This document shows positions 8,642-30,831 of a stretch of DNA of 64,000 bases, in pieces. Location of the stretch: positions 62,001 to 126,000 of the forward strand of contig CANOEC010000004.1 in assembly GCA_947564735.1 (NCBI GenBank), written 5' to 3'. Numbering within the stretch: the first letter of the stretch is position 1; each line of letters starts with the position of its first letter. The notes beneath the pieces were generated by a model, which did no database searches, was not told where the DNA came from, and was given only the letters and a program-made list of their open reading frames with translations. Source of the stretch: an uncultured Lachnospiraceae bacterium (GTDB taxonomy: Bacteria; Bacillota; Clostridia; Lachnospirales; Lachnospiraceae). Made by a program: the position numbers and the translations under genes.

Positions 8642-10468
8642 TCATGAACAGATAATCTCCTTGGTCGCCTCCTGCAGCCACTGCAATTCTTCTCCCTCAA
8701 AATGCGGTCGTAACGTCTCATATACCTTACTGTGATAGTCATTCAGCCATTGCAATTCCTTATCCGTCATCAGTTCTGGCAGAATCGCATCCCGGTCAAA
8801 GGGCACCATCGTCAGCGGTTCTAAATACATAAACTGCCCGTAACCGTTTTGCTCTCCCTTACGGCACAGCACAAGATTTTCATGCCGGATGCCAAACCGC
8901 CCCTCCAGATAGATGCCCGGTTCATTGGAAATGATCATGCCTTCCTCCAACGGAATGCTCGTCGCATTCATGGGAATACGCCACTGGAATCTCTGTGGTC
9001 CTTCATGCACGCCCAGAAGGAAGCCCACACCATGCCCGGTGCCGTGGTTATAGTCCAGCCCGTTCTCCCACAGTGGTTCTCTAGCCAGCACATCCAGATT
9101 CTGCCCGCAGACGCCGTACAAAAATCTGGCGGCTCCAAGCGCCAGATGCCCCCGCAGCGCTATCGTATAATATCTTTTTTCTTCCTCCGTCACGCTCCCT
9201 AACGCCACCGTGCGGGTAACGTCCGTCGTTCCATCCCGATAATGCCCGCCGGTGTCCGCCAGACAAAAACTGCCGCTCCTTAGCTCTGCATCCGTCTGCC
9301 TGGTCGGTTCATAATGTACGATTGCACCGTGGGAAGCATATGCAATGATAGGCTCAAAGCTTGCTCCGAGATACCCCTCCTGCTGCAAACGAAATTCTTC
9401 CAGCTTTGCCGCCGCACTCATCTCCGTAATCTTTTCCCTGCTTCCGGCTGTCCGCACATCCTCATCCACGCTCATCTTCAGCCAGCGGATAAACTTCGTC
9501 ACCGCCACACCGTCTTTGATATGGGCATTTCGCATATGTGTCATCTCCTGCGGTGTCTTTACGGCTTTCATAAGCAGGATGGGGCTGCATTTGTCCACCT
9601 TGCTTACCTGTGATGGCAGACTGTTTAAGAGACTGTAATTTACGCTCCTGCCGTCAACCCATACCCTTGCCTGTTCCGGAACGTCATGCAGCATTTTCTC
9701 AACAGCTCCATACGGACAGATGTCAATCCCTGCCCCTGTCAGCTTCTTTCGGATATCCTGCGGCAAAATCCGTTCATTGACACAGAGCGCCGCTTTTTCT
9801 TGCATCACAAGCATATATGCCAAAAAAACCGGCGTATACTTCACATCGTTTCCACGCAGATTGAGAAGCCATGCAATCTCGTCAAGGGCAGTTAAAAGCA
9901 GCATGTCCGCCCCCTCTTCCTTCATTTTCTCCCTGACGGCACAAAGCTTCTCCTCCCTGCTCTCTCCTGTATCACTTGCCTCCATTTCCCATACGGGTTC
10001 CGCAGAAATCTTCGGACGGTTCTCCCAGATAAAATCCACCAAATCTTCTCCGCCCGCAAACCTCATCCGCTTTGCATCCGTCTTCTCGGAAATCGTCTCT
10101 ACAAACTGCCCCGTAACGGTCCGTCCGTCAAACCCGATGATGCTCTCTTCTTCCAATTCATCCGCCAGATACTCCGCTATTGTGGGCACCCCCGGCTGTC
10201 CCGCCTTCATCAGCACAATGCTGCTGTCCGCAAGCTGCTCCTTTGCCTGTATAAAATATCTGCCGTCCGTCCAAAGTGCCGCCTTATCGCACAATACAAT
10301 CAGGGTTCCCGCTGAACCGGTGAACCCTGACATATACTCTCTTGCCTTAAAATATTCTCCCACATACTCAGAGCAGTGGTAATCATCTGTCGGAATGATA
10401 TACGCCGAAAGATTCCTCTCCCGCATCAGCCTGCGCAGCGCATCCAGTTTCTCATCCACATTCCTCAT
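8642..10468 (-). CDS. M24B Xaa-Pro aminopeptidase
   Basis: Cytosolic aminopeptidase P that removes an N-terminal residue before proline, 608 aa. It has the three-part layout of long aminopeptidase P: two creatinase-like N-terminal domains (to about residue 310) and a pita-bread catalytic domain. Dinuclear metal ligands are present: two Asp in ADTGGHYRDGTTDVTRT, His in GTGHGVGFLLGVHEG, Glu in SNEPGIY and Glu in RHENLVL. A C-terminal Peptidase_M24_C tail follows. It is the last gene before the carbonic anhydrase on the same strand, with 216 bp between them. Confidence 0.93.
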   Translation of the reverse strand: MRNVDEKLDALRRLMRERNLSAYIIPTDDYHCSEYVGEYFKAREYMSGFTGSAGTLIVLCDKAALWTDGRYFIQAKEQLADSSIVLMKAGQPGVPTIAEYLADELEEESIIGFDGRTVTGQFVETISEKTDAKRMRFAGGEDLVDFIWENRPKISAEPVWEMEASDTGESREEKLCAVREKMKEEGADMLLLTALDEIAWLLNLRGNDVKYTPVFLAYMLVMQEKAALCVNERILPQDIRKKLTGAGIDICPYGAVEKMLHDVPEQARVWVDGRSVNYSLLNSLPSQVSKVDKCSPILLMKAVKTPQEMTHMRNAHIKDGVAVTKFIRWLKMSVDEDVRTAGSREKITEMSAAAKLEEFRLQQEGYLGASFEPIIAYASHGAIVHYEPTRQTDAELRSGSFCLADTGGHYRDGTTDVTRTVALGSVTEEEKRYYTIALRGHLALGAARFLYGVCGQNLDVLAREPLWENGLDYNHGTGHGVGFLLGVHEGPQRFQWRIPMNATSIPLEEGMIISNEPGIYLEGRFGIRHENLVLCRKGEQNGYGQFMYLEPLTMVPFDRDAILPELMTDKELQWLNDYHSKVYETLRPHFEGEELQWLQEATKEIICS

Positions 10469-28039: not shown

Positions 28040-28705
28040 TCATGACTTCGCATCAAAAAAAATTCTGTCCTCCAAATAATCGGGAACTTCAGCCAACTGT
28101 TCCTCTCTCTCACTTTTGACTGCCCTATACTCTTTCCAATAAATAGAATAGAATTCATTTTTCTTCTCAAGTTCAGCCGGCGTCATTTCATAACTCCACC
28201 CATATCCGGTATTGGACAGAACTTTCACGCCCTGATAACTGATTTCCGCCCCATATCCGCCGCCCGTCAGAATCGGACAGCTTAATGTAGCGCCGCCAGC
28301 CAAAGCAAAACTTTTCTCTGCAAGACTGCTTCCTCTTCCCTCTGCCGCTTCCAGAAAATCAAGCAGTGTTATCTCTCCCACGCCATGGCATCTCGGATTT
28401 CCATTCTGATTCTTCATCGCATTTTTCGCCTGCTGATATAATTGTTTGCGGTCGGGAGCCACATCCGATAAATATTCTGCGTTCAGTTGAACCACCCTAT
28501 TTGCAATATACTCCGCTTCTGTCTTATTCGCTGCCGTAGCCGCCCTTTTTGCATGGTCTTTTATTTCACTGACAAATTCCTGCTTGGACTTCCGGCTTTT
28601 TCCTGCAGACGGAATATACGACCAGTTCGGTTCGCCACCGCTGCCCGATGTGAGCAATGCTGCCCTCTGCAATTGATTCATGCCCGAAAAAGTTATCCCC
28701 ATCAT
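28040..28705 (-). CDS. Unrecognised 221-aa protein
   Basis: I do not recognise this protein. No signal peptide or membrane helix is visible. The N-terminal part carries a short glycine-rich stretch (LLTSGSGGEPNW); residues 35-110 are helical and charged (KQEFVSEIKDHAKRAATAAN); the middle has small-residue-rich ALAGGATLSCPILTGGGYGAE, in which a strand-turn-strand is likely; the C-terminus is helical again. The ATG at 28705 is chosen for AAGG upstream; a GTG at 28711 would be too close. The base use is like that of its neighbours. It is last on the minus strand before the tRNA region, so it has its own promoter. Confidence 0.6.
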   Translation of the reverse strand: MMGITFSGMNQLQRAALLTSGSGGEPNWSYIPSAGKSRKSKQEFVSEIKDHAKRAATAANKTEAEYIANRVVQLNAEYLSDVAPDRKQLYQQAKNAMKNQNGNPRCHGVGEITLLDFLEAAEGRGSSLAEKSFALAGGATLSCPILTGGGYGAEISYQGVKVLSNTGYGWSYEMTPAELEKKNEFYSIYWKEYRAVKSEREEQLAEVPDYLEDRIFFDAKS

Positions 28706-28797
28706 TTTCACCCTTGTATATGCAATATTTAACCAATTTTTATATCGTCAGTTTTGCGGTGTATGCTTAATCTGCAGAAATAATTATCATGCTGTCC

Positions 28798-28825
28798 TTG
28801 CATTCTTGGCATAATGTGCTATAAT
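28798..28825 (+). promoter_or_regulatory. tRNA-Ala promoter
   Basis: -35 TTGCAT (28798-28803), 16-bp spacer, -10 TATAAT (28820-28825). Transcription would start near 28832, inside the tandem repeat. Confidence 0.7.
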
Positions 28826-28829
28826 AGAC

Positions 28830-28917
28830 GCAAAGCAAAGCATTTGCGTCGGCAAAGCAAAGCATTTGCGTCGGCAAGGTAAAGCATTTGCGTCAGCAAA
28901 GCAAAGCATTTGCGTCG
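28830..28917 (+). repeat. Four tandem 22-bp repeats between promoter and tRNA-Ala
   Basis: Four units of 22 bp at 28830, 28852, 28874 and 28896. Units 1, 2 and 4 are identical; unit 3 differs at three positions (GCAAGGTAAAG start and a final A). Each unit can fold because GCAAA and TTTGC are complementary. A partial fifth unit (GCAAG) follows. The repeats would form the leader of the tRNA transcript. Confidence 0.85.
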
Positions 28918-28957
28918 GCAAGAAAGTGCTCTTGTTTTTAGATTACAAAAATTGTAT

Positions 28958-29030
28958 GGGGATATAGCTCAGTTGGGAGAGCGATACGTTCGCAACGTAT
29001 AGGTCAGGGGTTCGAGTCCCCCTATCTCCA
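28958..29030 (+). tRNA. tRNA-Ala(CGC)
   Basis: 73-nt cloverleaf. The acceptor GGGGATA pairs with TATCTCC and includes the G3-U70 wobble that marks alanine tRNAs. The anticodon stem ATACG/CGTAT closes loop TTCGCAA, giving anticodon CGC for codon GCG. The T arm holds GTTCGAGTC. The discriminator is A; no CCA is encoded. Confidence 0.95.
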
Positions 29031-29038
29031 CTTTAAGG

Positions 29039-29086
29039 GTGTCTGTAAGCTTTGATTTGATTGAAGTTTACGACACTTCTTTTTTT
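29039..29086 (+). terminator. Terminator of tRNA-Ala
   Basis: GTGTC-T-GTAAGC pairs with GTTTACGACAC around an about 16-base loop and is followed by TTCTTTTTTT. It closes the tRNA transcript. Confidence 0.8.
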
Positions 29087-29094
29087 AAGATTCC

Positions 29095-29123
29095 TTGCAT
29101 CCTCCCATAAACTGCTCTATAAT
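29095..29123 (+). promoter_or_regulatory. Strong promoter of the candidate small RNA
   Basis: -35 TTGCAT (29095-29100), exactly 17 bp, -10 TATAAT (29118-29123). It uses the same hexamers as the tRNA-Ala promoter. The predicted start, about 29130, is the first base of the structured element. Confidence 0.7.
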
Positions 29124-29129
29124 ATTCTT

Positions 29130-29230
29130 AGCATCAGTTCTGGGAGGAGTGCGGTTTATCCGTACTGCCAGTGTCTAGGTTCACACTTTTGATTATCCCG
29201 TAGAACACTTGGCAGCTGATGCTATTTTTT
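29130..29230 (+). ncRNA. Candidate structured small RNA, about 100 nt, unrecognised
   Basis: A consensus promoter stands 7 bp upstream and the element ends in ATTTTTT. Closing stem A pairs 29129-29137 with 29216-29224 (TAGCATCAG/CTGATGCTA). Stem B pairs 29138-29145 with 29196-29205 (TTCTGGGA with TCCC-gt-AGAA). Stem C pairs 29165-29174 with 29205-29215 (CTGCCAGTGT with ACAC-t-TGGCAG). B and C cross, so together they form a pseudoknot; they share only base 29205 at their edge. A small hairpin CGG/CCG lies at about 29152-29162. The closing stem plus U tract acts as a terminator. It overlaps the stop codon of the opposing SCP2 gene by three bases. I cannot match it to 6S, SRP RNA, tmRNA or a known riboswitch. 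Confidence 0.55.
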
Positions 29231-29596
29231 CTTTGTCTTTCCCTTTGCGTTCGCTTTTTCTGTTTTTGCCGGGGCTTTTACCGGAATCTCTTTTAACAGC
29301 GCCGCTTTTCCTACATTGCCTTCCACTTTAATTTTTCCTGTCAGAAATGCCTTGACTACATCCAGTTTTCCCTCCGCAATTTCCTCAAGAACCGTTGCTT
29401 TCGTGATAACAAGCGCATCACGGTCATAGTACTCATAAGGCTGTACGGTAACTTTTCCATCTGCTACCTCTAGGTAAAATGCTCCTGCCGCCTCGCCTTC
29501 CACATTAAACTGGATTGCCAGATGCTCCTTTACTTTGGAGGCGTCTGCATCCTGATATGCCTCCTGTACCTGTTTTACTAATTCTTCATAGGTCAT
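29222..29596 (-). CDS. SCP2 sterol-binding domain protein
   Basis: 124-aa cytoplasmic protein with one SCP2 fold over residues 1-105 (VKEHLAIQFNVEGEAAGAFY, then ALLITKATVLEEI-like helix and AFLTGKIKVEGNVGKA). SCP2 domains bind lipids in a hydrophobic tunnel; bacterial stand-alone copies have no settled function. The C-terminal tail is Lys/Ala-rich (KTEKANAKGKTKKK). GGAGG precedes the ATG. The stop codon lies in the closing stem of the small RNA encoded on the other strand. Confidence 0.9.
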   Translation of the reverse strand: MTYEELVKQVQEAYQDADASKVKEHLAIQFNVEGEAAGAFYLEVADGKVTVQPYEYYDRDALVITKATVLEEIAEGKLDVVKAFLTGKIKVEGNVGKAALLKEIPVKAPAKTEKANAKGKTKKK

Positions 29597-29709
29597 TCCA
29601 AATTCCTCCTATCTGCCTAATCTGCATATTGCACATTTATTATAACACAATACAGGAGCTCACGAAACATTCTCTTACCGCACCTCTCTGACAGCTTCTA
29701 TCAATCCTA

Positions 29710-30831
29710 CTACCCAAGCAGCGCCCCGCTCACCTTCGCAAGCATATCTCTGATTGCAATGTGCTGCGGGCATGCCTCTTCACATTTTCCACATTTGATA
29801 CATTCGTCCGCACGCTTTAACCCATGACCGTCCACAAGCCATCCATACTGATGCTTCGCCGCTCCAATATCACTGTAGAGGGTCAGATAATTCATCGCCG
29901 TAAAGGAGCCGGAAATGCCAATCTGCATCGGACATACTTTCGCACAGTAGTTGCAGGAAGTACACGGAATCAACGGAATCTTCTTTAACTCCTCCTGTGC
30001 CTTATGTAACGCTTCCCGCTGGTTTTCCGTAAGCCCGTCAAAAGTTTTCATATAAGACAGATTATCCTTCATCTGCTCTATAGTACTCATACCGGAGAGA
30101 ACCGTAATCACGCCTTCCAGACCGGCTGCAAAACGGACTGCCCAAGATGCCACCGACTTCTCCGGTTCCGCCGCCTTCAAAATCTTTGTCACCGACTCCG
30201 GCGGCGTCGCCAGCATACCACCCTTTACAGGCTCCATAATCACCACCGGCTTCCCGTGCTTTCTTGCCACCTCATAACAGCGTCCCGACTGCACCGCCGG
30301 ATTATCCCAATCTGCATAGTTAATCTGCAATTGGACAAACTCCATTTCCGGATGCGCATTCAGTATTTCCTCTAACTCTTCCGGCGTAGAATGAAAAGAA
30401 AAGCCTATATGTTTTATCAGCCCCTCTTTCTTTTTCTCCTGCACCCAGTTCCACATATCATAGTCATCAAAATAGTGCGACCTGCCCTCTCCCAGATTAT
30501 GCAACAGATAAAAATCGAAAAATCCGGCTCCCGTCTGTTTCAATGACGTGTCAAACTGCGCGTATGCCTCCTCTTTTGTCTTGCAATTAATCCAAGCTGC
30601 GTTCTTGGTCGCAAGCTGGAAGCTCTCCCTTGGATAACGTTCCACAAGCGCCTGCCGGATTGCATCCTCGCTGCCCGCGTATGCCCACGCCGTATCGAAA
30701 TAGGTAAACCCGGCTTCCATAAATAAATCCACCATTTCCTTTACCTGCTCCACATCAATGACACCGTCCTTTTGCGGCAGGCGCATCAGACCAAATCCCA
30801 ATTTTTTGATTTCTTCACCCAAATAGCCCAT
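29710..30831 (-). CDS. Aldo/keto reductase with C-terminal 4Fe-4S domain
   Basis: 373-aa NAD(P)H oxidoreductase. The (beta/alpha)8 barrel of the AKR family opens with KLGFGLMRLP and has the catalytic Asp and Tyr in FDTAWAYAGSE, Lys in ATKNAAW and a His in YLLHNLG. After residue 280 a ferredoxin-like segment follows with CTSCNYCAKVCP and CIKCGKCEEACP, typical of the clostridial AKR-ferredoxin fusion. The ATG at 30831 has AGGAG seven bases upstream; codons further upstream cover the promoter. The divergent MerR-type gene probably controls it through a 19-bp-spacer promoter. Confidence 0.92.
   Translation of the reverse strand: MGYLGEEIKKLGFGLMRLPQKDGVIDVEQVKEMVDLFMEAGFTYFDTAWAYAGSEDAIRQALVERYPRESFQLATKNAAWINCKTKEEAYAQFDTSLKQTGAGFFDFYLLHNLGEGRSHYFDDYDMWNWVQEKKKEGLIKHIGFSFHSTPEELEEILNAHPEMEFVQLQINYADWDNPAVQSGRCYEVARKHGKPVVIMEPVKGGMLATPPESVTKILKAAEPEKSVASWAVRFAAGLEGVITVLSGMSTIEQMKDNLSYMKTFDGLTENQREALHKAQEELKKIPLIPCTSCNYCAKVCPMQIGISGSFTAMNYLTLYSDIGAAKHQYGWLVDGHGLKRADECIKCGKCEEACPQHIAIRDMLAKVSGALLG

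Follow-up and report, generated by a model that had tools for sequence, protein, structure and literature searches.

The window, that is, the whole stretch of 64,000 nucleotides analysed here, comes from an uncultured Lachnospiraceae bacterium. On its plus strand a tRNA-Ala gene (28958-29031) is followed by a terminator-like hairpin and then by a gene for a structured RNA (Table 1), towards which a convergent gene with an SCP2 domain (PF02036) runs on the minus strand (29222-29596). The stop codon of the SCP2 gene lies inside the 3' arm of helix P1 of the RNA. At 29222-29230 its final lysine codons stand opposite the U-run of the RNA, one stretch thereby serving both genes. The covariance-model match to the RNA spans 29128-29228 and scores 108.9 bits, the window copy being among the model's own sequences. 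The hairpin between the two genes had been described in the original prediction as a terminator, and 29036-29092 indeed folds at -18.7 kcal/mol (z -5.1). The closing stem followed by a U-run is likewise present in the sequence, as 29129-29137 paired with 29216-29224 and directly followed by TTTTTT.

Table 1. Features of the RNA locus, in window coordinates
Feature	Coordinates	Strand	Details or basis
Terminator-like hairpin of tRNA-Ala, separating the tRNA from the RNA gene	29038-29086	+	fold energy
Predicted promoter	29095-29123	+	TTGCAT 29095-29100, 17-nt spacer, TATAAT 29118-29123
RNA gene, predicted transcript of about 95-100 nt, ends inferred	29129-29230	+	covariance-model match, homologues
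P1, 5' arm	29129-29137	+	pairs with 29216-29224; U29138-G29215 may extend P1
P2 mini-hairpin UCU-GGGA-GGA, GNRA loop 29142-29145	29139-29148	+	pair changes, loop conservation
P3 hairpin, loop of variable length	29149-29165	+	paired cells, pair changes, fold energy
P4, 5' arm	29166-29174	+	pairs with 29205-29214, one bulge at 29209
P5, 5' arm CUAGG	29175-29179	+	CUA with UAG 29201-29203; G29179 with C29199
Apical loop, conserved ends UUCAC... and AUCC	29180-29198	+	conserved columns in alignments A1 and A3
3' arms of P4 (29205-29214) and P1 (29216-29224)	29205-29224	+	as for P4 and P1
U-run after P1, putative terminator TTTTTT	29225-29230	+	sequence

The predicted promoter ends 5 nt upstream of the first helix. 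The perfect spacing ascribed to it holds for the 17-nt spacer and the -10 element; the -35 element, TTGCAT, agrees with TTGACA at only three of six positions. At least five of the six TATAAT positions are found just upstream of the RNA in 89 of 98 relatives, compared with 11 of 98 in a shifted control. The -35 element starts with TTG in 65 of 95 relatives, with C as the next base in 43 of these 65, where the choice of spacing favoured TTG. Downstream of P1, five or more T within an 8-nt window occur in 59 of 98 relatives and in 23 of 98 in a downstream control; the remaining 39 have fewer than five, and the U-run is not universal. Neither the RNA promoter, the U-run nor the tRNA-Ala hairpin was among the signals that a generic promoter and terminator scan reported for 28700-29900. 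The RNA would thus have a promoter of its own by consensus, as suggested by the conservation of the -10 element in relatives. Transcription from this sigma-70-type promoter would start at about the first base pair of P1, and the transcript would end after P1, often at the U-run.

Exact matches to TTGCAT-N16-18-TATAAT number two in the window against 0.08 expected, one before tRNA-Ala and one before the RNA gene. The whole genome (G000) holds 19 such sites, including 28798-28825 and 29095-29123 of the window, and the reversed control none, which suggests that TTGCAT is a -35 variant in use in this genome. A tRNA-specific promoter type was considered and rejected, as tRNA-Ala is the only tRNA gene behind one of the 19 sites; at the 17 other loci no Rfam RNA was found. 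At 28830-28921 the tRNA-Ala promoter is separated from its tRNA by a tandem array of 4.2 copies of a 22-nt unit (GCAAAGCAAAGCATTTGCGTCG).

The RNA folds better than shuffled sequences (z -3.2), with one of 200 shuffles as good. According to the comparative model, helices P1, P2, P3 and P4 form a four-way junction, which leaves no unpaired junction bases if the U-G pair 29138/29215, kept in 98 of 100 sequences, is counted. The transcript would fold into P1, the P2 mini-hairpin, a P3 of variable length and a long P4-P5 arm with the conserved apical loop at its tip. The loop of P2 is of the GNRA type in 92 of 100 sequences; P2 by itself folds at only -0.3 kcal/mol, and the P3 region (29148-29166) by itself at -8.9 kcal/mol. 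In one relative (L274, 7923-8042, genome G024) an inverted repeat of about 40 nt lies in the P5 part, and P1-P4, judged by eye, are still able to form.

The helices were assessed in two alignments. Alignment A1, the basis of covariance model R1, contains 48 sequences aligned by MAFFT blind to structure; RNAalifold recovers P1, P2, P3 and P4 from it, with both-sided changes in 13 of 27 pairs. For alignment A3, eight doubtful sequences were removed (L203, L219, L250, L266, L267, L144 from G212, L145 from G104 and L147 from G936; G298 had never been included), which left 196 sequences, 129 of them non-redundant, and 100 of these 129 were modelled. A3 was fitted to P1, P3 and P4 and not to P2, and its counts, with both-sided changes in 19 of 26 pairs, thereby lean towards P1, P3 and P4. 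Its cells are paired in 96.9% of cases against 80.7% in shuffles, the double-change cells amount to 470 against 137.5, and the covariation score is 0.513 against 0.190 when shuffled and at most 0.124 when slid. Such shuffles ignore the relatedness of the sequences; therefore, a tree-based null was also run, in an R-scape-style implementation of our own that used 60 simulations and the 100 columns with the best filling in the 100-sequence alignment. Nine pairs reached E<=0.05, all of them in the model: five in P1, three in P4 and one in P3 (the latter at E 0.05). A tenth pair, in P4, had an E value of 0.07, and no pair outside the model, among the 4753 pairs tested, reached E<=0.5. In the same test 17 of the 26 model pairs, including all P2 pairs, missed E 0.05.

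Among the individual helices, both-sided changes were observed in eight of nine pairs of P1 and seven of nine of P4. P3 is paired in 99.6% of cells, with both-sided changes in two of five counted pairs. P2 is paired in 99.7% of cells, with both-sided changes in two of three pairs (UA to CG in two sequences, CG to UA in three) and a permutation z of 2.1. P5 occurs as CUA/UAG, CUC/GAG, CUAAG/CUUAG and CCA/UGG and has a permutation z of 11.5, in a permutation that ignores relatedness; none of its pairs appears in the tree-based test, a run in which the register of the P5 region was uncorrected. A conserved, covarying structure was thus found by RNAalifold, by pair counts and by the tree-based null. 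The original prediction was to be given up if relatives lacked conservation or covariation, and the RNA passed, with relatives and covariation both present. That the RNA gene and helices P1-P4 are real is, on this comparative evidence, almost certain.

It is accordingly of negligible probability that the structure arose by chance or that a small coding gene was missed here. Short ORFs (43 and 40 aa) do overlap the RNA. However, the compensatory changes lie far above both the shuffled and the tree-based nulls, and length differences among the relatives, compared by eye, do not come in multiples of three. It had been claimed that no ORF explains the region, and this holds: besides these two short ORFs, only the end of the SCP2 coding sequence, on the opposite strand, reaches into it.

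The architecture proposed originally, an H-type pseudoknot built from two crossing stems, was not borne out. One of these stems, 29165-29174 with 29205-29215, corresponds to P4 and covaries strongly. The other, 29138-29145 with 29196-29205, can be drawn in the window sequence itself and fails as drawn: its arm UUCY (29138-29141) gives a permutation z of 0.5 against the GAA side and pairs locally with RGA as P2. Of the two crossing helices only P4 is supported, and at the drawn arm the comparative data place a hairpin, mostly GNRA-capped, of the four-way junction. A short loop-loop contact between GGGA and UCCC is possible. Its permutation z of 4.1 gives weak support, with compensatory CGGA/UCCG in L135 and L140 and eight counter-examples, namely a GAAA loop with unchanged UCCC in L107, L116, L119 and L120 and poor pairing in L136, L139, L182 and L263 (all by eye). 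No crossing pair was significant in the all-pairs tree-based test, in which the relevant columns vary little. Mimicry of a Shine-Dalgarno sequence by GGGAGGAG was considered only; the purine strand changes in several members with P2 pairing kept.

The RNA gene is almost confined to Lachnospiraceae and is patchy within the family. By blastn, partial matches included, it was found in 37 of 78 genomes of the genus, and by blastn in 27 of 397 genomes of the family. Covariance model R1 found it in 60 of the 397 family genomes, or 57 without three matches that are doubtful as homologues: the pair G104 and G298 (56 nt, 27.8 bits) and the partial match in G212 (31.8 bits). A broader model, R2, matched 34 of 200 genomes in a family draw, the partial G212 included. 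There was one match per matching genome in both family searches. The order, class and phylum draws contain some family members. In the order draw R1 matched five of 295 genomes, all of the same family and one of them G104; in the phylum draw it matched two of 299, the window's own genome and G936; and in the class draw R2 matched one of 216, again the own genome. The G936 match (L147, 30.9 bits) lies across a long, mechanically called ORF and has the look of coding DNA. The phylum and class draws (299 and 216 genomes) contained no convincing match outside Lachnospiraceae. In the covariance-model searches no more than 10-20 prefiltered candidates were scored for each genome, so that a divergent copy may have gone unseen and the absences are soft ones.

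Titled genomes were also scanned by pattern, which returned at least 119 stretches, of which five (L203, L219, L250, L266 and L267) lack the fold by eye; all five come from records titled as other taxa. Among the matches listed, carriers include Blautia parvula, [Clostridium] citroniae, Hungatella hathewayi, Catenibacillus scindens, Parablautia muri, Parablautia intestinalis, Cuneatibacter, Marvinbryantia and Acetatifactor. Two fold-bearing records are titled outside the family, an Oscillospiraceae MAG (L184) and a 'Bacillus sp.' MAG (L167), the latter probably mislabelled. In alignment A2 the window RNA is 0.81 identical to its best match in another genus, and mostly 0.74-0.81 identical to members of its own genus, with three at 0.83-0.99. 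The value for the other genus falls within the range for most of the own genus, and therefore no claim of horizontal transfer is made.

The genes next to the RNA differ between genera. In the set of 55 wide loci, ORFs were called mechanically from 70 aa upwards; the first one downstream of the RNA runs antisense to it in 36 of 54 cases and along the same strand in 18 of 54. Over 84 loci, the two ORF clusters most recurrent across genera, with 15 and 10 loci, keep neither a constant distance nor a constant strand, and the largest cluster with a fixed place is a downstream cation P-type ATPase gene (named by eye), present in 10 loci and confined to one genus. The size of the RNA, its multi-helix junction and its conserved loops are aptamer-like, and in those 10 loci of the window's genus the ATPase gene follows in the same direction; an orphan riboswitch or another cis-acting leader is, however, very improbable. 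Besides the prevailing antisense orientation, the ATPase family was seen only in this genus, and in several loci (e.g. L005, L017 and L021) a TTGACA motif stands, by eye, between the RNA and the ATPase gene. A same-strand gene of one type downstream, as expected of a cis-riboswitch, was not found, and by this genomic context the RNA is not assigned to the riboswitches.

The two neighbours in the window do not generalize either. The position behind tRNA-Ala, part of the original description, turned out to be an enrichment and not a rule: 11 of 55 loci have a tRNA no more than 500 nt away, at a density of 0.20 per kb, which is about eight times the value at greater distances (about 0.02 per kb). 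In L103 and L109 a tRNA follows the RNA almost at once on the same strand, and the layout would make joint transcription possible there. Adjacency to SCP2 is not general: of six genomes whose SCP2 is 78-92% identical to that of the window, five (G011, G012, G014, G017 and G019, 78-90%) carry the RNA on a contig other than that of SCP2, and in one (G058, 92%) blastn found no match to the RNA anywhere in the genome. The SCP2 flanks of G058, G012, G014, G017 and G019, about 420 nt each, contain no RNA copy by eye. In G055 (SCP2 94% identical) the two are kept together. The changed address may reflect relocation, loss and regain, or transfer.

Different addresses within one genus and the raised tRNA density could also be expected if the RNA belonged to mobile DNA, as a component, a cargo or an integration site, and were not a cellular regulator. 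A pattern scan of viral contigs found one contig with a match, a phage- or plasmid-like IMG/VR contig (L270). On its minus strand, at 9212-9260, it carries the promoter followed by the 5' half of the RNA, and L308 shows the same site, up to about 1603. This copy breaks off in the P5 loop region, next to an ORF, possibly through recombination or integration, and it is the only copy cut inside a contig; a ParA-like gene (by eye) and a gene for a PAPS-reductase-domain protein lie nearby. Nevertheless, an origin in mobile DNA is distinctly unlikely, as matching genomes carry one match each, and neither 72,556 plasmids nor 50,697 phages gave a match by blastn with the window copy, a search that would miss divergent copies. 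The two other broken copies speak against it as well: that of G046 is split over two contig ends, which offers no evidence for the RNA as an attachment site, and that of G047 runs into what we take to be sequencing adapter.

The RNA had been reported as belonging to no known class, and Rfam agrees. Rfam 15 gave only tRNA matches in the window, with nothing at E<=10 for 29032-29300; 20 homologue loci gave only tRNA matches at gathering score, and at E<=1 no match overlapped the RNA in 18 loci. The genome has its own 6S RNA (RF00013, G000:C16:33427-33619) and SRP RNA (RF01854, G000:C77:1-230), both separate from the RNA gene, and the window RNA matches neither model. 6S RNA resembles it as a stand-alone structured bacterial RNA, but is a long bulged hairpin with a model of 187 positions and not a four-way junction; bacterial SRP RNA also stands alone and works as a scaffold of a ribonucleoprotein. 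The NiCo riboswitch, an aptamer of Clostridia, shares the size of about 100 nt and the four-way junction, and some loci of the window RNA lie beside a cation ATPase gene (by eye); unlike it, the window RNA has no Rfam match at E<=10 and no consistent downstream gene. Clostridiales-1 RNA (RF01699) is, by its Rfam name and type, an sRNA of Clostridiales; a sub-threshold match to it (36 of 48 bits) lies about 150 nt downstream of the RNA in L044 (1748-1872, minus strand), with no overlap. The raiA-motif RNA (ModT) is about twice as long as the window RNA, which lacks an Rfam match. It is likewise a conserved structured bacterial RNA, said to be present in more than 2,500 species of Bacillota and others (PMC11706538). 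Among titles and the beginnings of abstracts no description of the RNA was found, motif lists in supplements lying outside that search, so that an earlier listing is possible; the excerpts of PMC8632094 and PMC11109978 do not describe it. The RNA is a new class in the modest sense that no Rfam family includes it, and orphan structured RNAs in themselves are a familiar category. Of the independent, unannotated structured RNA originally proposed, the predicted promoter, the 3' U-run and the lack of an Rfam class stand, and the pseudoknot does not.

Because neighbours and orientations differ between loci, the RNA probably acts in trans and not on a neighbouring gene. The conserved nucleotides are tied to a compact fold, and therefore there is about an even chance that the folded RNA serves as a scaffold to which a protein or the ribosome binds, much as 6S and SRP RNA do, and not in antisense pairing. 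The conserved loops could equally be pairing sites, and a trans-acting antisense sRNA, in which the P5 apical loop (UUCAC..AUCC) and the P2 GGGA pair with mRNAs, is the main rival. The stand-alone gene with its predicted promoter and the conserved ends of the apical loop fit such an sRNA; most of the molecule, however, is locked in strongly covarying helices, and the P2 loop is of the GNRA type in 92 of 100 sequences, with a purine strand that changes in some members, which makes antisense action rather unlikely. Taken as a whole, the RNA is probably a stand-alone structured ncRNA of about 95 nt that would act in trans as a scaffold, with a protein or the ribosome as its partner. The patchy presence is odd for a housekeeping scaffold. 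Only tentatively, the RNA may be an exchangeable, one-per-genome four-way-junction RNA at the core of a ribonucleoprotein, whose gene changes address and stays single-copy, and not a fixed housekeeping gene.

Several stand-alone structured bacterial RNAs, such as 6S, SRP RNA, tmRNA and RNase P, do something basic. The covariance models and coordinates are enough to annotate the present RNA, and a new stand-alone RNA in named, culturable gut genera is directly open to experiment. Its patchy, single-copy and address-changing pattern raises the question of what a genome gains from one copy and why its sisters manage without it.
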